A stretch of 64,000 nucleotides of DNA from Mangrovicoccus algicola (lineage in GTDB: Bacteria > Pseudomonadota > Alphaproteobacteria > Rhodobacterales > Rhodobacteraceae): contig NZ_JACVXA010000003.1 in assembly GCF_014903745.1 (NCBI RefSeq), positions 1 to 64,000 on the forward strand, in the 5' to 3' direction. Position numbers and translations under genes: made by a program. Positions 13,834 to 24,257 of the stretch are shown here, one piece after another. Each line of letters opens with the position of its first letter. Positions within the stretch are counted from its first letter, which is position 1. The notes under the pieces are model-generated. The model was not told the DNA's origin, searched no databases, and saw only the letters and a program-made list of their open reading frames with translations.

Positions 13834-14763
13834 TCAGGGCCGGGCGCCGCGGCACCAGGGCTCCGCCCCCTGCGCATCGACGAAAAGGCGATAGACGCCG
13901 GTCGTCGCGGTGATGAACAGCGTCCGCCCCCGCGGCCCGCCGAAGGCCAGGTTCGATACCCTCTCGGGCACCAGGACCTTGCCCAGCAGGTCCCCGTCGG
14001 GGGCGAAGCACTGCACCCCGTCCAGCGCGGAGGTCCACAGATTGCCCTCGGCATCCACCCGGAACCCGTCGGGGAAGCCCGCATCGACCTCGCAGGCGAT
14101 GCCGTCATCGACCGGCCCCGCCGCCGTCATGCGGAACCGCCGGATCACCGGCGCGACGGAGGGATCATGGCTGCGCCCGCTCTCGGCGACATAGAGAAGG
14201 CTTTCATCGGGCGAGAAGGCAAGGCCGTTGGGCTGGGTGAAATCGGTGATCATCGCCTCAACCGCACCATCCGGGGCAATGCGGTAGACATGGCGGCCCG
14301 GCTGCTCGGGCTCCGCGCGGTAGCCCTCGAAGCTCGACAGGATGCCATAGGTCGGATCGGTGAACCACACGGCGCCGTCGGAGGCGACCACCAGGTCATT
14401 GGGCGAATTCAGCCGTCGCCCCCCGTGGCTGTCGGCCAGCACGGTGATGCGCCCGTCGGGTTCGGTCCGGGCCACGTCGCGGCTCCCGTGGCGGCAGGAG
14501 ACCAGCCGCCCCTGCCGGTCGCGGGTATGGCCATTGGCGAAGCCCGAGGCGCCGCGGAACAGGCTGACCCCGTCCGCCTCGCTCCAGCGCATCACCCGTT
14601 CGGAGGGAATGTCGCTGAACAGCAGGCAGCCATGGTCGCCGAACCAGACCGGCCCCTCGACCCAGGTGAATCCGCCGGCGATCCGTTCCAGCGGCGCGGT
14701 GCGGTGCACGAGACGGCGGAACCGGTCATCGGCGTAATGCAGGTGGTCGGGCAGCAGGCTCAT
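13834..14763 (-). CDS. SMP-30/gluconolactonase-family sugar lactonase
   Basis: A 309-aa six-bladed propeller lactonase. Metal-site landmarks are E36 in VEGPVW, N119-D123 in LNSPNDL and N179 in QPNGLAF. It lacks a signal peptide, so it is cytoplasmic. It would open a sugar-1,4- or 1,5-lactone to the aldonate. It is the last of three minus-strand genes (amidohydrolase, mutarotase, this gene), with about 36 bp between it and the mutarotase. A second, unrelated lactonase-like enzyme is encoded two genes upstream. Confidence 0.85.
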   Translation of the reverse strand: MSLLPDHLHYADDRFRRLVHRTAPLERIAGGFTWVEGPVWFGDHGCLLFSDIPSERVMRWSEADGVSLFRGASGFANGHTRDRQGRLVSCRHGSRDVARTEPDGRITVLADSHGGRRLNSPNDLVVASDGAVWFTDPTYGILSSFEGYRAEPEQPGRHVYRIAPDGAVEAMITDFTQPNGLAFSPDESLLYVAESGRSHDPSVAPVIRRFRMTAAGPVDDGIACEVDAGFPDGFRVDAEGNLWTSALDGVQCFAPDGDLLGKVLVPERVSNLAFGGPRGRTLFITATTGVYRLFVDAQGAEPWCRGARP

Positions 14764-14799: not shown

Positions 14800-15129
14800 T
14801 CAGTCAAGGTGGAACACCTCCTCCATCGGCGCCCACCATTCGCCCTCCGCCCGGCTGTCCAGCGGGCGCTGCATCGGCCCGCAGACCGCCCACCAGTCCC
14901 GCGTCACCGGATCGGCGGCGATGGCGGCGCTGTCCGCGGCGAAATCCGTGCCGCGATATTCCCAGTAGCCGAACATCACCATCTCGGGTTCGCGCAGGAA
15001 GATCGAGTAATTGGTGATGTTCGAGGCGCGCAGCCGCTCCAGCACGGCAGGCCAGGCATCGGCATGAAGACGCCGGTATTCGGCCACATGCTCCGGCGCC
15101 AGGCCGATCATCATTCCCATCCGCTGCAT
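14800..15129 (-). CDS. L-rhamnose/L-fucose mutarotase (RhaM-like)
   Basis: A 109-aa protein, the usual size for the RhaM family, which interconverts alpha and beta anomers of deoxyhexoses. It shows the conserved ITNYSIFLREPEMVMFGY core, an early HADAWPAVL segment and the closing WWAPMEEVFHLD. The ATG at 15129 follows GGGGAGG and sits one base after the stop of the upstream amidohydrolase gene, so the two are coupled. It feeds the correct anomer to the adjacent aldose dehydrogenase. Whether fucose or rhamnose is preferred cannot be read. Confidence 0.85.
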   Translation of the reverse strand: MQRMGMMIGLAPEHVAEYRRLHADAWPAVLERLRASNITNYSIFLREPEMVMFGYWEYRGTDFAADSAAIAADPVTRDWWAVCGPMQRPLDSRAEGEWWAPMEEVFHLD

Positions 15130-15130
15130 C

Positions 15131-15958
15131 TCACGCCTCCCCGATGCCATAGAACCGCGCCGCCGTTCCGGAAAACAGCGCCTGCCGTTCCGCCGGGGAC
15201 AGATCCGCCGCCAGGGCCTGTGCCGCCCGGTGCCAGCCGCCGTAATCGCCGGCCAGATGCAGCACCGGCCAGTCGCTGCCCCACATCACCCGCCCGGCCC
15301 CGAAACACGCCAGGACATGGTCGAAGACGGGGCGGAAATCCTCCGCCTGCCAGCCCGGCCCCCATTCCGTCGCCAGTCCCGAGAGCTTGCAGAAGACCCT
15401 GGGATGCCGCGCCAGCGCCGCCATGCCGCCGCGCCAGTCATCGCCGGGATCGCCGTCCCGGAACACCGGCTTGGCACAATGGTCGATCACCAGCGGCAGA
15501 TCGGGCAGCCGCGCCGCCAGATCGCCGATCACCCCCAGATGGCGCGGCGTGACCAGCGCATCCAGCCGCAGACCCGCCGCCGCCACCGCCTCCAGCCCCG
15601 CCAGGACCTGCGGGTGCAGGATCCAGTCCGTCGCCACGATATCCTGCAGCATGGGGCGGATCCCCCGCAGCCGCGGATGCGCGATCCGCGCCAGCTGCGC
15701 GGGCACGTCGCCCTCCAGGTCGACCCAGCCCACCACCGCGCGGATCTGCGGCGTCGCATCGGCCAGCGACAACAGGAACTCGGTCTCCGCCAGCGTGGGC
15801 GCCGCCTGCACCGCCACCGTGCCCGTCACCCCCGCCGCACGGGCCAAAGGCGCCAGATCCGCAGGCAGCAGGTCGCGCCGGATCGCCGCCACGCCGTCAT
15901 CCATCCAGCCGTAATCCCCCCGGCCGATCCGCCAGTAATGCTGATGCGCGTCGATCAC
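15131..15958 (-). CDS. Amidohydrolase-family sugar lactonase (fucono-/rhamnonolactonase-like)
   Basis: A 275-aa TIM-barrel hydrolase of the amidohydrolase-2 family. The metal motif is DAHQHYW (H5, H7), with IDHCAKP in the middle and WGSDWPVL carrying the late Asp. This subfamily includes L-fucono-1,5-lactone and L-rhamnono-lactone hydrolases. It is the first gene of the three-gene minus operon and starts opposite the aldose dehydrogenase, with an operator copy in the shared 99-bp gap. Hydrolysis of the lactone made by that dehydrogenase is the best guess. Confidence 0.8.
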   Translation of the reverse strand: MIDAHQHYWRIGRGDYGWMDDGVAAIRRDLLPADLAPLARAAGVTGTVAVQAAPTLAETEFLLSLADATPQIRAVVGWVDLEGDVPAQLARIAHPRLRGIRPMLQDIVATDWILHPQVLAGLEAVAAAGLRLDALVTPRHLGVIGDLAARLPDLPLVIDHCAKPVFRDGDPGDDWRGGMAALARHPRVFCKLSGLATEWGPGWQAEDFRPVFDHVLACFGAGRVMWGSDWPVLHLAGDYGGWHRAAQALAADLSPAERQALFSGTAARFYGIGEA

Positions 15959-15981: not shown

Positions 15982-15998
15982 TTTGTACTAAATAATAA
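15982..15998. promoter_or_regulatory. Operator copy 1: TTTGTACTAAATAATAA
   Basis: This 17-mer sits in the 99-bp gap between the divergent amidohydrolase and aldose dehydrogenase genes. It matches two 17-mers in the promoter region of the GntR gene and ABC operon 2 kb away (17972-17988 and 18020-18036) at 15 of 17 and 14 of 17 positions. It is an AT-rich island in GC-rich DNA and is probably bound by the GntR protein encoded at 17027-17929. Confidence 0.7.
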
Positions 15999-16057
15999 CG
16001 TACACGTCAGAGGCGCCGTCAACCGCAATTCCGCCGGAGGGGCGCAGGGAGGCCAGG

Positions 16058-17023
16058 ATGAAGACCCGCCATATCGGACGCACCGGACTGGAGGTGAGCG
16101 AGATCGCCTTCGGCTGTGCGAGCATCGGCAACCTGTATCGCGAGGTGACGGAGGCAGAGGCGCAGGCCGTGCTGGACGCCGCATGGGAGGCGGGCATCCG
16201 CTATTTCGACACGGCACCGCATTACGGGCGCGGCCTGTCGGAAATGCGGCTGGGCCGGTTCCTGGCCGACAAGCCCGGCGCGGTGATCTCCACCAAGGTG
16301 GGGCGGCTGCTGTCGCCCGCGCGCAGCCCCATTGCCGAGGCTGACGGCTATGTCCGCCCCGCGCAGAACGACATGCGCTACGACTATTCCGGCGACGGGA
16401 TCGAGGAAAGCCTGGAGCAGAGCTGCGAACGGCTGGGGCGCAGCGGCGTCGACATCCTCTATGTCCACGATATCGGCGCCTATACCCATGGCGCCGCCAA
16501 TGAGGCGCATATGGAGGCTTTCCTCGGCTCGGGCTATGCGCGGCTGCGGCGGATGAAGGAACAGGGGCGGATCCATGCCTTCGGGCTGGGGGTGAACGAG
16601 AACGAGGTCTGCCTGCAGGTGATGCGCGAGGCGGGTCCGCTGGACGTGATCCTTCTGGCCGGGCGGCTGACGCTTCTGGACCGCTCGGCCGAGGCGGCGC
16701 TGGTCCCGGCCTGCCGCGCGGCGGGCACCAGCCTGGTGCTGGGGGGCGTGTTCAATTCCGGCATCCTCGCCACCGGCCCCGTCCCCGGCGCCACCTATGA
16801 TTACGGTCCCGCCCCGGGGGAGGTGCTGGAGCGCGTCGCGGATCTGCAGGCGCGCGCCGGGGCGCAGGGCCTGCCGCTGGCCACCGCCGCGCTGCATTTC
16901 GCGATGCGCCATCCGGCAACGGCCGCGGTGTTGCTGGGCACGGCCAAGCCCGCCAGCCTCAGGCGCAATCTCGACGCCCTTGCCACCGCCATGCCTGCGG
17001 GCGCGGAGGCGGCGCTGGCCTGA
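16058..17023 (+). CDS. Aldo/keto reductase, L-fucose (D-threo-aldose) dehydrogenase-like
   Basis: A 321-aa AKR with the catalytic tetrad D51, Y56 (FDTAPHYGRG), K80 and H137 (YVHDIG). The YGRGLSEMRLGRFL segment and the later IGAYTHG stretch resemble D-threo-aldose 1-dehydrogenases, which oxidise L-fucose or L-galactose at C1 to the lactone with NAD(P). Two lactonases, a mutarotase and a dehydratase in the same operator-linked locus support this. GGGGCGCAGGGAGGCC lies upstream of the ATG. The gene ends 3 bp from the convergent GntR gene, inside a hairpin. Confidence 0.83.
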   Translation: MKTRHIGRTGLEVSEIAFGCASIGNLYREVTEAEAQAVLDAAWEAGIRYFDTAPHYGRGLSEMRLGRFLADKPGAVISTKVGRLLSPARSPIAEADGYVRPAQNDMRYDYSGDGIEESLEQSCERLGRSGVDILYVHDIGAYTHGAANEAHMEAFLGSGYARLRRMKEQGRIHAFGLGVNENEVCLQVMREAGPLDVILLAGRLTLLDRSAEAALVPACRAAGTSLVLGGVFNSGILATGPVPGATYDYGPAPGEVLERVADLQARAGAQGLPLATAALHFAMRHPATAAVLLGTAKPASLRRNLDALATAMPAGAEAALA

Positions 17024-17035
17024 ACCTCAGGCCAG
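17015..17035. terminator. Hairpin spanning both convergent stop codons
   Basis: CTGGCCTGA (17015-17023) and TCAGGCCAG (17027-17035) form a perfect 9-bp stem with a 3-base loop. The stop codon of the aldose dehydrogenase is in one arm and the stop codon of the GntR gene in the other. It could act on both transcripts; no T tract is present. Confidence 0.5.
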
Positions 17036-17929
17036 TTCGTGATGGCGCAGCGAAGACAGCAGCGTCGTCTTGGAGGTGCGCAGATGCCGCCCCGCCGCCG
17101 CCTGCGCGGCCGGGGCGTCGCGCGCCTCCAGCGCATCGATGATCTCCAGGTGCTCCTCGATCGCGGCGGCGTTGCGGGTTTTCTCCTCGGTCTTGTCCCA
17201 CATGAAATGATAGTGGAAGATCAGCGAGATGACCTTCTGGAACTCGGCGGTGAACCGATTGGTGACGACCGAGTTCAGCGCCTGGTGGAACCGCTCGTCC
17301 AGCTTCGAGAAGGCGTGGAAATCGGTCTCGATCGCGGCGCGCAGGCGCAGATGCGCCGCCCGCAGCTCAGCCAGCTCGGCCCAGACCGGGTGATCGACCG
17401 GCGCCTCCGCCAGCCGCGCCACCGCGTCGAGTTCCAGCACCGAGCGGAAATCCGACAGCTCGATGGCGAAATCGCGGGTGAAGCCCAGCAGCATCCACCC
17501 CCCCTGCGGCCGCCGCGAGACCAGGCCGAAGCGGCTGAGCCCGGCGAGGAATTCCTTCAGCTCGTGCTGCGGCACATCGAAATGGCGCGACAGTTCGGCC
17601 ACCGACAGCGCCGTCCCCGCGGGCACGTCGAAACGCAGCACCCAGTCGAGGAATCTCTGTTCCAGATCCTCCGCCCCCCCCTCGGGGCGCAGGAGGTCGA
17701 TCCGGTCCTCCGCCAGCGGCGCGCGCAGCAGCAGCTTCTCCCGCCCCGACCAGGCCAGCAGCCCGGTCTCTTCCATCCGGCCCAGGCAGCGGCGGATGAT
17801 CGTGCGGCTGACCCCGGCAATCTCGGCCAGGCCCGTCTCCGAGGGCATCACGGATCCCGGCGGCAGCGCGCCGCAGTAATCGAGGATCCGGTTATAGGCC
17901 TCGCGGAACCGCGTGTCGCTGCGCGCCAT
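17027..17929 (-). CDS. GntR/FCD regulator with two apparent winged-helix domains
   Basis: A 300-aa regulator, about 70 residues longer than a normal FCD protein. A first winged helix (about 8-70) has the helix SRTIIRRCLGRMEETGLL. A second similar segment (about 92-150) reads LSVAELSRHFDVPQHELKEF, then LSRFGLVSRR and a wing. The FCD domain follows, with ERFHQALNS and HYHFMWDK. The ATG at 17929 has AGGAG six bases upstream; a start at 17986 would run through an operator copy and is rejected. Two copies of the 17-bp operator lie just upstream and a third controls the lactonase/dehydrogenase promoters. It probably represses the locus and itself until a sugar acid binds. Confidence 0.82.
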   Translation of the reverse strand: MARSDTRFREAYNRILDYCGALPPGSVMPSETGLAEIAGVSRTIIRRCLGRMEETGLLAWSGREKLLLRAPLAEDRIDLLRPEGGAEDLEQRFLDWVLRFDVPAGTALSVAELSRHFDVPQHELKEFLAGLSRFGLVSRRPQGGWMLLGFTRDFAIELSDFRSVLELDAVARLAEAPVDHPVWAELAELRAAHLRLRAAIETDFHAFSKLDERFHQALNSVVTNRFTAEFQKVISLIFHYHFMWDKTEEKTRNAAAIEEHLEIIDALEARDAPAAQAAAGRHLRTSKTTLLSSLRHHELA

Positions 17930-17971
17930 GATCTGCTCCTTCTGCTGTCCCGCGCCGGGCGCCGGACTGTA

Positions 17972-17988
17972 TTTGTACGAAATCATAA
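17972..17988. promoter_or_regulatory. Operator copy 2: TTTGTACGAAATCATAA
   Basis: This second 17-mer lies 43 bp upstream of the GntR start codon. It contains ATTT-N5-AAAT dyad symmetry (17971-17983). Autoregulation of the GntR gene is the likely meaning. Confidence 0.65.
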
Positions 17989-17995
17989 AAAACCG

Positions 17996-18036
17996 TTGAC
18001 GGGAATCAAAGCACGTTTTTATGTATCAAATAATAA
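17996..18036 (+). promoter_or_regulatory. ABC operon promoter with operator copy 3
   Basis: A TTGACG -35-like box (17996-18001) lies 18 bp before TATGTA (18020-18025). The latter is the start of the third 17-mer TATGTATCAAATAATAA (18020-18036). An operator on the -10 region would allow repression. The ABC permease starts at 18062. Confidence 0.5.
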
Positions 18037-18061
18037 AAAACATCGTGCGAAAGGGAGGCGC

Positions 18062-19105
18062 ATGACCCTGGCATCCAGACCCGCCGCCATGAGCGCGCGG
18101 CGCAGCCGCGCCGCCGCCTTTCAGTTCCTGCCCGATGCGGCAAAGCTTCACCGCCTTTCCGCGCTGGCGACGCTGTTCCTGCTGATCCTCGGCTTCGCCC
18201 TGGCCAGCCCGGCCTTCTTCTCGGTCAATAACGGGCTGACGATCCTGCTGCAGACCTCGGTGATCGGGCTTCTTGGGATCGGCATGACCATGGTCATCAT
18301 CACCGGGGGCATCGACCTGTCCGTCGGCTCCGTGCTGGCGCTGTCGGGCGTGGCCTCGGGCATGGCGATCAAGGCCGGCGTTCCGGTCGGCCCCGGCATG
18401 GCCTTCGGCGTGGCGGTGGGCGCGGCCTGCGGCGCGCTCAACGGGCTGATCGTGACGCGGATGCGCATCCCCCCCTTCGTCGCCACGCTGGGCATGATGC
18501 TGATGGCGCGGGGGCTGGCGCTGCAGCTGACCGGGGCGGCGCCGATCTCGCAGCTGGGCGAGGCCTTCGGGCGGCTGGGCAACGGCGCGCTGTTCCGGAT
18601 CGTGGAAATGCGCCCCAACGGCTTTCCCAAGGTGATCTTTCCCGGCATCCCCTACCCGGCCATCGTGCTGCTGATCGTGGCCATCGCCGCCGCCTACCTG
18701 CTGCGCCGGCGCCAGATCGGCCGCCACATCTATGCCACCGGATCGAACGAGGAGGCCGCGCGGCTCTCGGGCGTGCGCACCGACCGCGCCAAGCTCTATG
18801 CCTATGCCATGTCCGGCGCGCTGGCGGGGCTGGCGGGGATCGTCCTGATGTCGCGGCTGGTGACCGCCCAGCCCAGCGAGGGCGTGATGTACGAACTCGA
18901 CGCCATCGCGGCGGCGGTGATCGGCGGCGCGTCGCTCTCCGGCGGGGTGGGCACGGTGCCCGGCACGATGATCGGCGCCTTCATCATCGGCATCCTGCGC
19001 AACGGCCTGAACATGGCCGGGGTGTCGGCCTTCATCCAGCAGATCGTCATCGGCGCCGTCGTGATCGCCGCGGTCTGGATCGACCATATCCGCAACCGGC
19101 CCTGA
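18062..19105 (+). CDS. Sugar ABC transporter permease, RbsC type
   Basis: A 347-aa inner-membrane permease of the ribose/fucose/rhamnose family. About eight to ten helices are visible, with GGIDLSVGSVLALSG in the first third, GALNGLIVTRMRIPPFVATLG in the middle (20-residue excerpt, ATP-binding-subunit coupling region) and ATGSNEEAARLSGV. GGGAGG precedes the ATG. Unusually, the permease is the first gene, followed by the binding protein, the ATPase and two catabolic enzymes. It works with the next two genes to import a sugar, probably a 6-deoxyhexose or related aldose. Confidence 0.88.
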   Translation: MTLASRPAAMSARRSRAAAFQFLPDAAKLHRLSALATLFLLILGFALASPAFFSVNNGLTILLQTSVIGLLGIGMTMVIITGGIDLSVGSVLALSGVASGMAIKAGVPVGPGMAFGVAVGAACGALNGLIVTRMRIPPFVATLGMMLMARGLALQLTGAAPISQLGEAFGRLGNGALFRIVEMRPNGFPKVIFPGIPYPAIVLLIVAIAAAYLLRRRQIGRHIYATGSNEEAARLSGVRTDRAKLYAYAMSGALAGLAGIVLMSRLVTAQPSEGVMYELDAIAAAVIGGASLSGGVGTVPGTMIGAFIIGILRNGLNMAGVSAFIQQIVIGAVVIAAVWIDHIRNRP

Positions 19106-19185
19106 GGCTGCGGAAGGCCCGCCCCGGGACGCAAGAAGCCCGGGCGCGGCGGAACAGGGAACAGTCTCTACTGAGGAGGAATGAG

Positions 19186-20124
19186 ATGCGTCCGATCAAG
19201 CTTGCACTTGTGACATCGACACTTGCCCTTGCCGCGGGCTTCGCGCAGGCGGGCGAAATCGCGGTGATCGTCAAGACCACCAGCTCGAATTTCTGGCAGA
19301 ACGTCAATCGCGGCGCCGAGGCCGCCATCGCCGCCCAGGGCGAGCACAGCTTCACCTTCGACGGCCCCGCCACCGAAAGCGCGGTGGCCGACCAGGTGAA
19401 CCTGGTGGAGAACGCGATCAATCGCGGCGTCGCGGGCATCGTCCTGGCGCCGTCGGATCCCGAGGCGCTGGCCCCGGCGGTCAAGCGCGCCTACGAGGCC
19501 GCCATCCCCGTCGTCATCATCGACAGCGCCCTGGCCGACAGCGCCGAGGGCACCTACCAGTCCTTCCTGTCGACCGACAACTGCGCCGCGGGCGAGGAAG
19601 TCGCCAAGCGGATGATCGAGAAGGCCGGCACGGAGGGCAAGGTCGCGATCATGTCCTATGTGGCGGGCGTGGGCTCGGAGATCGGGCGGGTCGGGTGCTT
19701 CTCCGACTACCTCGCGGCCAATTCCCAGCTCGAGATCGTCGGGCCGTTCTATTCGCAGAGCCAGATGGCCAACGCGCTGAACCAGACCACCGACATCCTG
19801 GCCGCCAATCCCGACCTGGTGGGCATTTTCGGGGCCAATGAACCCACCGCGGTCGGCATGGGCCGCGCCATCGTTCAGGCGGGCAAGGCGGGGCAGCTGG
19901 TCGCGCTCGGCTTCGACGGCAATGCCGATCTTCAGCAATTCGTCCGCGACGGGGTGCTGGACGCGACGGCGGTGCAGGGATCCTTCGCCATGGGCGAGAA
20001 GGGGATCGAGACGATCATCCGCATCCTCGGCGATGACGCGGTGGAGCCCTTCGTCAATACCGGCGTGGTGCTGGTCGACAAGGACAACATCGACACCGAC
20101 ACCGCGCAGAACGTCCTCTACTGA
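19186..20124 (+). CDS. Sugar ABC transporter periplasmic binding protein, RbsB type
   Basis: A 312-aa binding protein with a Sec signal (about 1-22, ending FAQAG). Ribose-binding-family landmarks are KTTSSNFWQNV in the first ligand loop, GVAGIVLAPSDPEAL, DSALADS, GIFGANEPTAVG and LGFDGNADL. GAGGAGG precedes the ATG. It lies 80 bp after the permease and 65 bp before the ATPase, with a hairpin in the second gap. It delivers the sugar to the permease; the exact sugar is not readable. Confidence 0.88.
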   Translation: MRPIKLALVTSTLALAAGFAQAGEIAVIVKTTSSNFWQNVNRGAEAAIAAQGEHSFTFDGPATESAVADQVNLVENAINRGVAGIVLAPSDPEALAPAVKRAYEAAIPVVIIDSALADSAEGTYQSFLSTDNCAAGEEVAKRMIEKAGTEGKVAIMSYVAGVGSEIGRVGCFSDYLAANSQLEIVGPFYSQSQMANALNQTTDILAANPDLVGIFGANEPTAVGMGRAIVQAGKAGQLVALGFDGNADLQQFVRDGVLDATAVQGSFAMGEKGIETIIRILGDDAVEPFVNTGVVLVDKDNIDTDTAQNVLY

Positions 20125-20141
20125 GCCGGATCCGCGCGACC

Positions 20142-20162
20142 GCGGGGGGCGCCGCCCCCCGC
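20142..20162. repeat. Intercistronic hairpin after the sugar-binding protein gene
   Basis: GCGGGGGGC (20142-20150) pairs with GCCCCCCGC (20154-20162) across a 3-base loop, just downstream of the binding-protein stop. No T tract. It is the same arrangement as after the other periplasmic binding-protein genes here. Confidence 0.45.
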
Positions 20163-20189
20163 CCCTTCCGGCAGAAAGGCAGCCACAGC

Positions 20190-20969
20190 ATGACCCGCCC
20201 CCTCGTGGAACTCATCGATATCGAGAAGCATTTCGGCGGCATCCGCGCGGTCGACCGCGTCTCGCTGGACCTCTGGCCGGGCGAGGTGGTCGGCGTGCTG
20301 GGCCATAACGGCGCGGGCAAGTCCTGCCTGATGCGGATCCTGTCCGGGGCGATGACGCCCTCGGCCGGCGAGATCCGCGTCAACGGCAGCCCCGCGTCCT
20401 TTTCCAGCCCCAATGACGCCCGCGCGGCCGGGATCGAGACGATCTACCAGACCCTGGCGCTGGCCGATCACCTGGACGCGGCCGCCAATCTTTTCCTGGG
20501 CCGCGAACTCAAGACCCGGTTCGGCAATCTCGACGACGCGCGGATGCTGGCCGAGGCCAGGACCGTGCTGGCGCGGCTGAACCCGAATTTCAAGAACCTG
20601 CGCGATCCGGTCTCGTCGCTGTCCGGCGGGCAGAGGCAGGTGATCGCCATCGCCCGCGCGATCTATTTCGACACAAAAATCCTGATCATGGACGAACCCA
20701 CCGCGGCGCTGGGACCGTCGGAAACCGCCATGGTCGCCGACCTGATCCGCCAGCTGCGCGACGAGGGCATCGGCATCTTCCTCGTCAGCCATGACATGCA
20801 TGACGTGTTCGAGCTGTGCGACCGGGTCGTGGTGATGAACAAGGGCCGGCTGGTCGGCGCCCATGCCATCCACGAAGTGTCGAAGGACGACGTGCTGAGC
20901 CTGATCGTCAAGGGCGAGCTGCCCGCCGACTGGTCGGCGCGCAACCTGATGGCGGAGGCGGCGCAATGA
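20190..20969 (+). CDS. Sugar ABC transporter ATPase, single-domain
   Basis: A 259-aa ATPase with Walker A GHNGAGKS (38-45), Q-loop YQTLA (86-90), signature LSGGQ (144-148) and Walker B LIMDEPT (165-171). Most RbsA-type partners have two fused ATPase domains of about 500 aa; this one is a single domain, so it must act as a homodimer, as in FrcA-type systems. Its stop overlaps the ATG of the zinc dehydrogenase (ATGA), tying uptake to catabolism. Confidence 0.88.
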   Translation: MTRPLVELIDIEKHFGGIRAVDRVSLDLWPGEVVGVLGHNGAGKSCLMRILSGAMTPSAGEIRVNGSPASFSSPNDARAAGIETIYQTLALADHLDAAANLFLGRELKTRFGNLDDARMLAEARTVLARLNPNFKNLRDPVSSLSGGQRQVIAIARAIYFDTKILIMDEPTAALGPSETAMVADLIRQLRDEGIGIFLVSHDMHDVFELCDRVVVMNKGRLVGAHAIHEVSKDDVLSLIVKGELPADWSARNLMAEAAQ

Positions 20970-21976
20970 GGGATCTTCCCGGCGACCTGATGGATTGCGG
21001 CATCTGCGTCGCGCCCGGCCGGTTCGAGGTCGCGCCGCGCGCATGGCCGATGATCGCCCCGCCCGGCTGGCGGCTGGTCGATATCGCGGCGATCGGCATC
21101 TGCGGCACGGATTACCACATCTTCGAGGGGAAGCACCCGTTCCTCGACTATCCGCGGGTGATCGGGCACGAGCTGTCCGGCCACCTGGCGGACGGGCCGG
21201 ATGCCGGTCAGCTGGTAGTGGTGAACCCCTACCTGTCCTGCGGCACCTGCCGGGCCTGCCTGCGCGGGAAACCCAATTGCTGCGCCGCGATCGAGGTGCT
21301 GGGCGTGCATCGCGACGGCGGCATGTGCGCCCGCATCGCGGTGCCGGAGGCGAACCTCTATCCCGCCGAGGGGCTGAGCGCGATCCAGGCGGCGATGGTC
21401 GAATTCCTCGCCATCGGCGCCCATGCCGTGGCCCGCGCCGGGCTGGTCCCGGGCGACCGCGTGCTGGTCACCGGCGCGGGACCCATCGGGCTGGGCACCG
21501 CGATCTTCGCGCGGCTCGCCGGGGCGGAGGTGCATCTGAGCGACCTCTCCGCCGAAAGGCTGGCCACGGCGCGGCGGCTCTTCGGCTTCGAGCGCCTGCA
21601 GGAGGCGGGCCGCGACATCCTGGCGGGGGACCTGGCCGAGGGGTTCGACACGGTCTTCGACGCCACCGGCAGCGCGGCATCGATCATGGCGGGCTTTCCG
21701 CTGGTCGCGCATGGCGGATCGAGCGTGCTGGTCAGCGTGGTCAAGGACGACATCACCTTCGCCGATGCCGAGTTCCACAAGCGCGAGACCCGCATCATCG
21801 GCAGCCGCAACGCCCTGCGCGCCGATTTCGACCGGGTGATCGCGGCCATCCGCGACGGACAGGTGCCCACGGACGCCATCGCCACCGAGGTGCTGCCGCT
21901 GGCCGACCTGCCCGGCCGCTTCCCCGGCCTCGCCGCCGAGCGCGGCGCCATCGTCAAGGTGCTGGTGACGCCATGA
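20966..21976 (+). CDS. Zinc-dependent medium-chain alcohol dehydrogenase (sugar acid/polyol type)
   Basis: A 336-aa MDR enzyme. Catalytic zinc ligands are C in GICGTDYH and H-E in GHELSG. A structural-zinc Cys cluster (LSCGTCRACLRGKPNCC) follows, and VTGAGPIGLGTA is the nucleotide loop. It resembles L-galactonate or L-threonine-type dehydrogenases that oxidise a secondary hydroxyl with NAD. It overlaps both neighbours by 4 bp. In the locus it could oxidise a deoxy-aldonate or the 2-keto-3-deoxy acid made by the next enzyme. Confidence 0.83.
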   Translation: MRDLPGDLMDCGICVAPGRFEVAPRAWPMIAPPGWRLVDIAAIGICGTDYHIFEGKHPFLDYPRVIGHELSGHLADGPDAGQLVVVNPYLSCGTCRACLRGKPNCCAAIEVLGVHRDGGMCARIAVPEANLYPAEGLSAIQAAMVEFLAIGAHAVARAGLVPGDRVLVTGAGPIGLGTAIFARLAGAEVHLSDLSAERLATARRLFGFERLQEAGRDILAGDLAEGFDTVFDATGSAASIMAGFPLVAHGGSSVLVSVVKDDITFADAEFHKRETRIIGSRNALRADFDRVIAAIRDGQVPTDAIATEVLPLADLPGRFPGLAAERGAIVKVLVTP

Positions 21977-23499
21977 AGGACCTCACGGATCCCCCCTGCG
22001 CGCTGCATCTGCACCCCGAGGACAATGTCCTGGTGGCGCTGCGCGCCGTGCCCGCGGGCACGGTCCTGCCCGGCGGGATCACCGCGGCGGAGCCCGTCCC
22101 GGCGGGGCACAAGATCGCCGCCGCCGCCATCGCCGCGGGCGAATCCGTACGCAAATACGGGCAGATCATCGGCGCGGCGACGCAGCCCGTGGCCCCGGGC
22201 ATGCATGTCCATGTCCATAATCTCGGCATGGGCGCGCACCGGCAGGATTACGGCTTCGCCCTGGATGCACGGCCCCTGCCCCCGGCCGCGGGCGCCGACA
22301 GCTTCCTGGGGTTCCACCGGCCCTCGGGCCGGGTCGGGACGCGCAACTATATCGGCATCCTGACCTCGGTGAATTGCGCAGGCTCCGTCGCGCGCTTCAT
22401 CGCCGAGGCCGCCACGCGCGGGGGTCTGCTCGATGCCTATCCCAATGTCGACGGGATCGTGCCCATCGTCCATGGATCGGGCTGCGGCATGTCCGGCAAG
22501 GGCGAAGGCTATGACACGCTGTTCCGCACCCTGGCGGGCTATGGGCGCAACCCGAATTTCGGCGCGATCCTGATGGTGGGGCTGGGCTGCGAGGTGATGC
22601 AGATCCCCGACCTGGTGGACCGCGCCGCGATGAAGGACCGCGAGAGGTTCCGCTACATGACGATCCAGCACGAGGGCGGCACCCGCGCCACGGTGGATCG
22701 CGGGCTGGGCCTTCTGCGCGAACTGGCCGCCGCCGCCGACACCGCCCGGCGCGCCCCGGCCCCGGCCTCGGCGCTGGTGCTGGGGATGCAATGCGGCGGC
22801 TCGGACGGGTATTCCGGCGTCACCGCCAATCCCGCGCTCGGCCATGCCTCGGACCTGCTGGTGCGCCAGGGCGGCACATCGATCCTGTCGGAGACCTCGG
22901 AAATCTACGGCGCCGAACACCTTCTGACCCGGCGCGCGGTGGACGCGCCCACGGGGCGCAGGCTGGTCGGGCTGATCGAGTGGTGGGAGGATTACACCGC
23001 CCGCAATTTCGGCGAGATGGACAACAATCCCAGCCCCGGCAACAAGCGCGGCGGGCTGACCACGATCCTGGAGAAATCGCTGGGCGCCGTCGCCAAGGGC
23101 GGCACCGCGCCGCTGGCGGGGGTCTACAAATTCGCCGAACCCATCGACCGCCCCGGCTTCGTCTTCATGGACAGCCCCGGCTACGACCCCTGTTCGGTGA
23201 CCGGCCAGACCGCCTCGGGCGCCACCCTCATCGCCTTCACCACCGGGCGCGGCTCGGTTTCGGGCTACCAGCCGGTGCCCTCGGTCAAGATCGCGTCGAA
23301 TGCCGACCTGTGGCGGCGGATGGAGGGCGACATGGACGTCAATTGCGGCGACATCCTCGACGGGACCCCAATTGCCGACAAGGGGCGCCAGATCTACGAG
23401 CTCTTGCTGCGCGTGGCCTCGGGCGAGAAGACCAAGAGCGAGGCGCAGGGCTTCGGCGCGGTGGAATTCGTTCCCTGGCAGATCGGCGCGGTCATGTAG
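21973..23499 (+). CDS. uxaA: UxaA-family altronate/galactarate-type dehydratase
   Basis: A 508-aa iron-dependent sugar-acid dehydratase. The N-terminal SAF domain (about 8-85) has HPEDNVLVAL, KYGQIIG and HVHVHNLG. The large C-terminal UxaA domain has GRVGTRNYIGI, GSGCGMSG, QCGGSDGYSG and NPSPGNKRGG. Both domains on one chain match altronate dehydratase size. The family removes water from C2/C3 of an aldonate to give a 2-keto-3-deoxy acid. Next to an L-fucose-type dehydrogenase the substrate may be L-fuconate or L-galactonate rather than altronate, so the symbol marks the family only. Confidence 0.83.
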   Translation: MKDLTDPPCALHLHPEDNVLVALRAVPAGTVLPGGITAAEPVPAGHKIAAAAIAAGESVRKYGQIIGAATQPVAPGMHVHVHNLGMGAHRQDYGFALDARPLPPAAGADSFLGFHRPSGRVGTRNYIGILTSVNCAGSVARFIAEAATRGGLLDAYPNVDGIVPIVHGSGCGMSGKGEGYDTLFRTLAGYGRNPNFGAILMVGLGCEVMQIPDLVDRAAMKDRERFRYMTIQHEGGTRATVDRGLGLLRELAAAADTARRAPAPASALVLGMQCGGSDGYSGVTANPALGHASDLLVRQGGTSILSETSEIYGAEHLLTRRAVDAPTGRRLVGLIEWWEDYTARNFGEMDNNPSPGNKRGGLTTILEKSLGAVAKGGTAPLAGVYKFAEPIDRPGFVFMDSPGYDPCSVTGQTASGATLIAFTTGRGSVSGYQPVPSVKIASNADLWRRMEGDMDVNCGDILDGTPIADKGRQIYELLLRVASGEKTKSEAQGFGAVEFVPWQIGAVM

Positions 23500-23507
23500 A
23501 CCCGCCC

Positions 23508-24257
23508 TCAGAGCAGTTTCGAGATCTCGGCCGCCACTGCCAGCACGCGGGCGGTCAGCGCGGGGTCGGGCTGCATCTGCATCTCGTGGCCCGAGAGGTT
23601 CATCGCCGCCACGTAATGGCCGTGGCGCGACACCAGCGGCGCGGCGATGGAATAGGTGCCGGTCGCCAGGTGAGAGCCCTGCGCGACATGGCCGCGCCTG
23701 CGGTCGGCCTTCAGCAGCGGTTTCAGCTCGGCCAGCGAGGCGGGCGCGGCCGGGCTCATCCGGTCGAAGGCATAGCCCGCGAAGCGGCGGTCCAGTTCCT
23801 CCTCGGGCAGATCGCTGAGCAATACCCGCCCCATCGTGGTCGAGAAGGCCGGCAGGCGCGACCCCACCGGCACGTTCGACACCATCGCCCGGTCCGACAG
23901 CGCGCGATGGACATAGACGATCTCGGTTTCCTGCAGCACCGCGACATGGACGGTGAAGCCCGTCTCGTTGCGCAGCGCCTCCGCCAGCGGCCGCGCCAGG
24001 TCATAGACATCCAGCGAGGCGAGGTAGCGATAGCCCAGGTCCATCACCCTGGGCGCCAGGCGATAGCGGTTCTCCTGGCGGATCAGGTAGCCTTCGCGTT
24101 CCAGCGTCACGATGAACCGGTAGGCGGCCGAACTGGTCACCGAGATCGCCTCGGCGATCTCGGTCAGCGTCATCTCGGGGCGGCGCGGCTCGAAGCATTC
24201 AAGGATGCTCAGGCCCCGCAACAGCGAGTTCGAGCGGTAATCGGGCTCCTTTGCCAT
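23508..24257 (-). CDS. IclR-family regulator of the hut genes
   Basis: A 249-aa IclR regulator. The N-terminal helix-turn-helix (about 10-70) has SLLRGLSILECF and LTEIAEAISVTSSAAYRFI. The C-terminal GAF-like effector domain has the TTMGRVLLSDL and GTYSIAAPLV patterns. It starts 12 bp after the hutF stop on the same strand, so it is the last gene of hutG-hutF-iclR. It probably controls this operon and perhaps the divergent TAXI transporter; a CAGCTG-centred palindrome in the shared gap is a candidate site. Confidence 0.85.
   Translation of the reverse strand: MAKEPDYRSNSLLRGLSILECFEPRRPEMTLTEIAEAISVTSSAAYRFIVTLEREGYLIRQENRYRLAPRVMDLGYRYLASLDVYDLARPLAEALRNETGFTVHVAVLQETEIVYVHRALSDRAMVSNVPVGSRLPAFSTTMGRVLLSDLPEEELDRRFAGYAFDRMSPAAPASLAELKPLLKADRRRGHVAQGSHLATGTYSIAAPLVSRHGHYVAAMNLSGHEMQMQPDPALTARVLAVAAEISKLL

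Follow-up and report, generated by a model that had tools for sequence, protein, structure and literature searches.

A long palindromic operator is linked to a GntR/FCD regulator with two predicted winged-helix domains at a sugar catabolic locus of Mangrovicoccus algicola

Gene content of the locus

We analyzed a 64,000-nucleotide stretch of Mangrovicoccus algicola DNA (contig NZ_JACVXA010000003.1, positions 1 to 64,000), referred to here as the window. On the minus strand lie genes for an SMP-30/gluconolactonase-type lactonase (13834 to 14763), a RhaM-type sugar mutarotase (14800 to 15150), and a PF04909 amidohydrolase that resembles L-fucono-1,5-lactonases (15131 to 15958). An aldo/keto reductase gene follows on the plus strand (16058 to 17023); its product is a presumed aldose dehydrogenase whose nearest solved relatives are L-galactose dehydrogenases. 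The 300-amino-acid regulator is encoded next, on the minus strand (17027 to 17929). Beyond it, plus-strand genes encode an ABC sugar importer composed of a permease, a binding protein, and a one-domain ATPase (18062 to 20969), a Zn-dependent alcohol dehydrogenase (20963 to 21976; nearest NCBIfam model PRK10083, below its cutoff), and an altronate/galactarate-type dehydratase (21976 to 23499), whose gene adjoins that of an IclR-type protein (23508 to 24257). For the amidohydrolase, the nearest NCBIfam model is the fuconolactonase model (220.7 bits, below the cutoff of 400), and the 4dlf group is its sole strong relative of solved structure.

The locus contains parts of a nonphosphorylating L-fucose/L-galactose cluster, namely, an aldose dehydrogenase, a lactonase, a mutarotase, and a dehydratase. 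One related locus (L041) adds a UxaB-like dehydrogenase, a 2-dehydro-3-deoxygluconokinase-like kinase, and a 2,4-didehydro-3-deoxy-L-rhamnonate hydrolase-like protein. L-Fucose is 6-deoxy-L-galactose; thus, the cluster enzymes fit either sugar, or both. From its sequence, the gene set is predicted to serve the uptake and breakdown of a sugar related to L-fucose and L-galactose. The original prediction described a deoxy-sugar regulon, which is possible but unproven, since L-galactose dehydrogenases stand closest to the aldose dehydrogenase and the UxaB-like and kinase genes of relatives fit L-galactose equally well. L-Rhamnose was not favored as the substrate, as the known rhizobial RhaR regulators are of the DeoR type (PMC3870299). 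By type, not by sequence, the arrangement can be likened to Sinorhizobium meliloti SMc02772-4, where a CUT2-type L-fucose importer lies beside a putative L-fucose dehydrogenase (PMC3454389). The CUT2-like importer ATPase of the window (20190 to 20969) has one domain and 259 amino acids, and the ATPase gene gguA beside a closely related importer on a rhizobial plasmid (L166) encodes about 516 amino acids, the size of a two-domain protein.

Three copies of a 23-bp palindrome

Three copies of a 17-bp operator had been proposed for this locus, and all are present exactly, on the plus strand, at 15982 (TTTGTACTAAATAATAA), 17972 (TTTGTACGAAATCATAA), and 18020 (TATGTATCAAATAATAA). With up to three mismatches allowed, the IUPAC consensus of these 17-mers had three matches in the 64-kb window and no fourth, versus 0.05 in dinucleotide shuffles. 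Pattern searches of the genome (4.39 Mb, 145 contigs) returned only these three places at up to two mismatches, and the same three with a 21-bp consensus taken from relatives; the many scattered copies that the original prediction had named as evidence against a regulon were not found in either search. At up to three mismatches there were 14 genomic matches, the other eleven all with three mismatches, versus 11 for a reversed control pattern. As it spans just a portion of the site, the 17-mer consensus fit many relatives poorly.

To derive the site from other genomes, we assembled a set of 80 orthologous loci, all in named genomes. The training set consisted of the 260-bp regions upstream of the regulator gene in 79 of these and left out both the Mangrovicoccus locus and the window. 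In an expectation-maximization search unseeded by the window, GTCAAnTGTTTTTaATtaTTtnataCA ranked first among the motifs. Repeated sites were then sought with the consensus of the operator part of that motif as the seed, which yielded a 23-bp matrix. On the regulator strand, the matrix reads TTGTTTTTAAT-N-ATTNNATACAA, an odd palindrome in which TTGT/ACAA arms enclose an A+T core. This matrix found exactly three sites of at least 9 bits in the window, and the 17-mers form their left part. Operator 3 (15983 to 16005; TTGTACTAAATAATAACGTACAC; 19.2 bits) lies between the lactonase operon and the aldose dehydrogenase gene, and its arms are perfect across five bases (TGTAC...GTACA). Operator 1 (17973 to 17995; TTGTACGAAATCATAAAAAACCG; 23.2 bits) and operator 2 (18021 to 18043; ATGTATCAAATAATAAAAAACAT; 29.8 bits) are 48 bp apart. 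The conserved unit is therefore not 17 bp long but a 23-bp odd palindrome, TTGT-N15-ACAA, with the A+T-rich core TTTAAT-N-ATTAAA, and judged by sequence, its length is about twice that typical for this repressor family. A reading of the two copies 48 bp apart as a direct repeat was dropped, as the single unit is itself palindromic and, among relatives, the best score for the distal copy comes in either orientation.

Conservation of the sites and their link to the regulator

Two sites upstream of the regulator, 46 to 51 bp apart (mode, 50) and usually facing the transporter operon, were found in 65 of the 80 loci, one site was found in 9, and none was found in 6; these loci are related to each other, and the counts are not independent trials. 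Training had excluded the catabolic intergenic region, so that a third site there counts as held out. Such a site was present in 58 of the 80 loci, 0.9 to 3.3 kb from the regulator start and mostly directly before the amidohydrolase gene, the aldose dehydrogenase gene, or both. The nearest regulator relative in the named-genome collection, that of Mangrovicoccus sp. HB161399, is 86% identical, and a genome of the same genus likewise carries a regulator with 86% identity. Chance occurrence of A+T-rich words in a G+C-rich genome has a negligible probability of explaining these sites. The matches are indeed A+T rich and lie in A+T-rich intergenic gaps; however, at the same threshold an order-3 Markov sequence modeled on the same loci gave 0 matches in 1.53 Mb, and a Markov model trained on the regulator promoter regions themselves gave 0.015 sites per 300 bp. 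With three sites seen in the window against 0.05 expected, the conservation across the 80 loci already refutes chance.

As a negative control, we used four plasmid loci that carry the same importer family (binding proteins 66 to 72% identical) and lack a close relative of the regulator. Three of the four also have an aldose dehydrogenase and a lactonase; one has a 223-amino-acid FadR/GntR gene beside the importer, and one has a GntR gene of 25% identity 3 kb away. No site of at least 10 bits occurred in any of these four 18.9-kb loci. Thus, the sites follow the regulator and not the pathway, and comparative genomics together with this control gives good support to the prediction that one operator ties the GntR protein encoded at 17027 to 17929 to the transcripts of the lactonase/aldose dehydrogenase genes, the regulator gene, and the ABC-dehydrogenase-dehydratase operon. 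It is very improbable that the sites belong to another regulator, such as the IclR-type protein, and merely travel with the cluster. The IclR gene does adjoin the dehydratase gene, and the Campylobacter jejuni L-fucose operon cj0481-cj0489, which resembles the window in its UxaA-type dehydratase, its amidohydrolase, and a repressor gene divergent from the operon, is controlled by an IclR protein, FucR (PMC12566272). The C. jejuni operon also differs in having an SDR dehydrogenase. Its transporter is FucP, of another kind than the importer of the window. Against control by the IclR-type protein, the motif is absent where the pathway occurs without a close relative of the GntR regulator, and it follows the two-headed regulators described below into loci of other pathways and to distant paralogues.

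The regulator is predicted to contain two winged-helix domains

The protein matches Pfam PF00392 (GntR; 52.6 bits, cutoff 27) in two stretches and PF07729 (FCD; 71 bits, cutoff 24.3). An AlphaFold2 model built from 62 sequences (mean pLDDT, 86; pTM, 0.62) contains a GntR-type winged helix (wHTH1, residues ~2 to 67), a second winged helix (wHTH2, ~86 to 147), and a helical FCD domain (~152 to 298); the model is of a monomer, and at this pTM the orientation of the domains is uncertain. In structure comparisons, residues 85 to 299 match the full length of FCD regulators that have one head (TM0439; Z, 19.7; 204 residues; root mean square deviation [RMSD], 3.3), and residues 1 to 81 align separately with GntR winged helices (BusR; Z, 10.1; and PhnF; Z, 9.7; 64 residues; RMSD, 1.7 Å). 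According to the model, then, the regulator is an ordinary wHTH-plus-FCD repressor with a second, N-terminal GntR head. The original assignment to the GntR family holds, but the protein is not a plain member, having two winged-helix domains plus FCD. Members of the FadR subfamily usually have one winged helix per subunit, although this is not strictly defining, and the regulator model has two. Among the structure matches listed, no solved chain spanned both winged helices and the FCD domain in one low-RMSD alignment, which records an absence only. Text searches of the open-access literature found no described GntR/FCD regulator with two winged helices, which is not proof of novelty.

The two heads differ in their conserved residues. 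In wHTH1, residues E31, S41, R42, T43, and R46 are invariant in all 62 orthologs and in all 25 members of a mixed set. The S-R-T counterparts are not kept in wHTH2, where most orthologs have His at position 122 and Gln or Lys at 125. In the FCD domain, all 62 orthologs keep D211, H215, H260, and H282, which match, by conservation only, the Asp-His-His metal site of DgoR, a type of site that is not universal in the subfamily. DgoR is an FCD repressor that binds an aldonate, D-galactonate, and its metal site comprises Asp146, His150, and His195 (PMC7674646). By analogy with these conserved metal ligands, a sugar acid is likely the inducer.

Operators overlap predicted promoters

Promoters were called by eye from consensus matches, and their start sites do not come from mapping. 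The predicted promoter of the ABC operon (17996 to 18025, plus strand) has a −35 box TTGACG at 17996 to 18001, an 18-nucleotide spacer, and a −10 box TATGTA at 18020 to 18025; operator 1 abuts this −35 box, and operator 2 overlaps the −10 box. Directly after operator 1 on the importer strand, TTGAC is found in 57 of 68 aligned pairs, the window counted, and most of the others have TTGGC. The predicted regulator promoter (17982 to 18009, minus strand) has a −35 box TTGATT at 18009 to 18004, a 16-nucleotide spacer, and a −10 box TATGAT at 17987 to 17982, within operator 1; AATCAA is kept at the place of this −35 box in many close orthologs. The reading frame called mechanically for the regulator begins at an ATG at 17986, inside operator 1, and the conserved start (MAR...) is at 17929. 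For the lactonase operon, the predicted promoter (15993 to 16022, minus strand) has a −35 box TTGACG at 16022 to 16017, an 18-nucleotide spacer, and a −10 box TTATTA at 15998 to 15993, held within operator 3. Every operator of the window thus overlays a predicted −10 box, which, taken at face value, is the arrangement expected of an autoregulating repressor. Among relatives, the positions of the −10 boxes vary. One group of relatives keeps operator 3 at a roughly constant distance from the start of the amidohydrolase gene; in another group, with many members, TTGAC occurs on the opposite strand instead, and the transcript controlled there may therefore differ between lineages. A model of strict helical phase, with the two sites as a cooperative pair, was dropped because the spacing varies from 46 to 51 bp, a range explained by −35/−10 geometry.

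We consider it highly probable that the product of the gene at 17027 to 17929 uses the three sites as its operators and that this protein is an autoregulated, aldonate-sensing repressor with two DNA-binding domains per subunit reading a doubled operator. In the proposed mechanism, a dimer would occupy each 23-bp palindrome when inducer is lacking. It would then hide the −10 box of the lactonase operon at operator 3, that of the regulator gene at operator 1, and that of the ABC-dehydrogenase-dehydratase operon at operator 2, with operator 1 also flanking the −35 box of the last. A sugar acid of the pathway, of the L-fuconate or L-galactonate type, would bind at the FCD metal site and release the repressor. 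The first winged helix, with its FadR-type GT/AC-reading residues, would read the outer TTGT/ACAA arms, and the second, which lacks those residues, would read the A+T core.

Activation or mixed action, with the operators serving as activator sites, seems improbable. Some FCD regulators, such as CitO, act as activators, and CitO has been described as inducing. Operator 1 abuts the ABC −35 box at a fixed place, a position that activators also use; however, operators 2 and 3 overlap predicted −10 boxes, and the −35 boxes are near consensus (TTGACA/TTGACG), so that no activator would be needed. We therefore infer repression rather than activation.

How the two domains would share the operator

FadR-subfamily boxes have the form TKGT/ACMA, typically with 2 to 3 nucleotides between GT and AC, with known exceptions, and covariation work has linked an HTH arginine to the G of the box (PMC4494728); we keep the position numbering of that work apart from that of the regulator. 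The operator of the window spans 23 bp and has 15 nucleotides from GT to AC. We judge it unlikely, though well worth weighing, that only one winged helix reads DNA. In that case wHTH1 would contact the TTGT/ACAA arms, wHTH2 would be a spacer or dimerization piece that sets the 15-bp distance, and the A+T core would be kept for the −10 boxes or for easy bending. The retention of the S-R-T/R recognition residues in wHTH1 alone, with H122 and Q/K125 in the second domain of orthologs, is in keeping with a single reader, as is the overlap of the operators with −10-like hexamers. However, conservation of the core extends to both halves of the dyad, both in operators and in paralogues that differ in promoter strand. 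In addition, the unit of wHTH2 and FCD can be aligned from end to end with regulators that bind DNA through that domain, and wHTH2 of paralogues keeps an Arg at the position equivalent to R46. Only about half a helical turn separates the GT boxes from the core half-sites, and two heads would need a special geometry to read them simultaneously.

Paralogues and central spacing

The same genome encodes a second two-headed regulator (contig 84, 13816 to 15862; 40% identical), divergent from a UxaB/mannitol dehydrogenase-like gene; in many relatives, the UxaB-like gene lies inside the main cluster instead. The palindrome upstream of the contig 84 regulator, CGGTCTTTTATTTATAATGAACCA, scored 20.6 bits in a GT-N16-AC form versus 9.7 bits in the form of the window, whereas the three window sites had the opposite preference (20.1 to 24.9 bits in their own form versus 2.5 to 8.6 bits). 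Among 26 distant members (L029 to L039 and L132 to L161; 36 to 42% identity), we found 15 long palindromes within 260 bp upstream, against 0.13 expected, a result that ties the long operator to the two-headed architecture in general. The palindromes of these distant paralogues are GT-N15/16-AC, mostly of the N16 form, and those of orthologs are GT-N15-AC. The ortholog count is biased, as those sites were picked with an odd matrix, and unbiased support for the spacing comes from the de novo motif and from the paralogue scan with both spacings. A single central base pair may keep the paralogues apart, and flanking bases differ as well (GGT/ACC versus TGT/ACA).

A broader proposal has, in our estimate, an even chance of being right. 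Here, an FCD-repressor subfamily would have gained a second winged helix, and its dimer would read a 21- to 24-bp palindrome with four heads, the N-terminal pair on the GT/AC arms and the inner pair on the A+T core. Paralogues in one cell would be separated by one central base pair, as between GT-N15-AC in the window and GT-N16-AC on contig 84.

Relation to other FCD regulators and distribution

The regulator shares with the FadR subfamily (VanR/Atu1419, PDB code 6za3; TM0439, 3fms; and DgoR) the GntR winged helix, the FCD domain, and an Asp-His-His-(His) metal site. Palindromic TKGT/ACMA-box operators, several of them overlapping promoters of divergent genes, are also common to both; however, the regulator of the window has an additional N-terminal winged helix. 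The operator of Atu1419 is a 10-bp palindrome (PMC7797058), in contrast to the 23 bp found here. BioR, an alphaproteobacterial FCD regulator that controls biotin genes, recognizes TTATMKATAA, an A+T-only palindrome much like the TTAAT-N-ATTAA core of the window, but outer GT/AC arms are missing from its site (PMC4494728).

As a local sugar regulon, this one is ordinary. The unusual feature, across the whole subfamily, is the combination of a second regulator head with an operator of about double the standard length. GntR/FCD proteins are among the largest groups of bacterial repressors. Their operators are as a rule short and similar, so that cross talk between paralogues is a standing question. 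A natural duplication of a domain, with a longer operator as its result and spacing differences of 1 bp between paralogues, offers a simple system for the evolution of new specificity. The 23-bp matrix can be used to find the regulon in genomes of Rhodobacterales and Hyphomicrobiales, and it also helps to name an uncharacterized marine and soil sugar pathway.

A further copy had been anticipated before an SDR-bearing TRAP operon, and the matrix scan found none there in the window. That arrangement occurs at another locus, L080, where a TRAP binding-protein gene has a weaker copy (2629 to 2651; 15.7 bits) 170 bp upstream. At L076, a strong operator copy (17397 to 17419; 26.7 bits) is flanked by the gene for a second regulator, 31% identical, and by a TRAP binding-protein gene; judged from this placement, two paralogues in one genome may share sites. 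A class-wide search, with one genome per sampled species and a profile from 11 paralogues, found few members outside Rhodobacteraceae. Three loci outside the family of the window, L161, L159, and L160, carry two-headed regulators with upstream palindromes of 22 to 24 bp, and L160 has two such palindromes, 43 bp apart.
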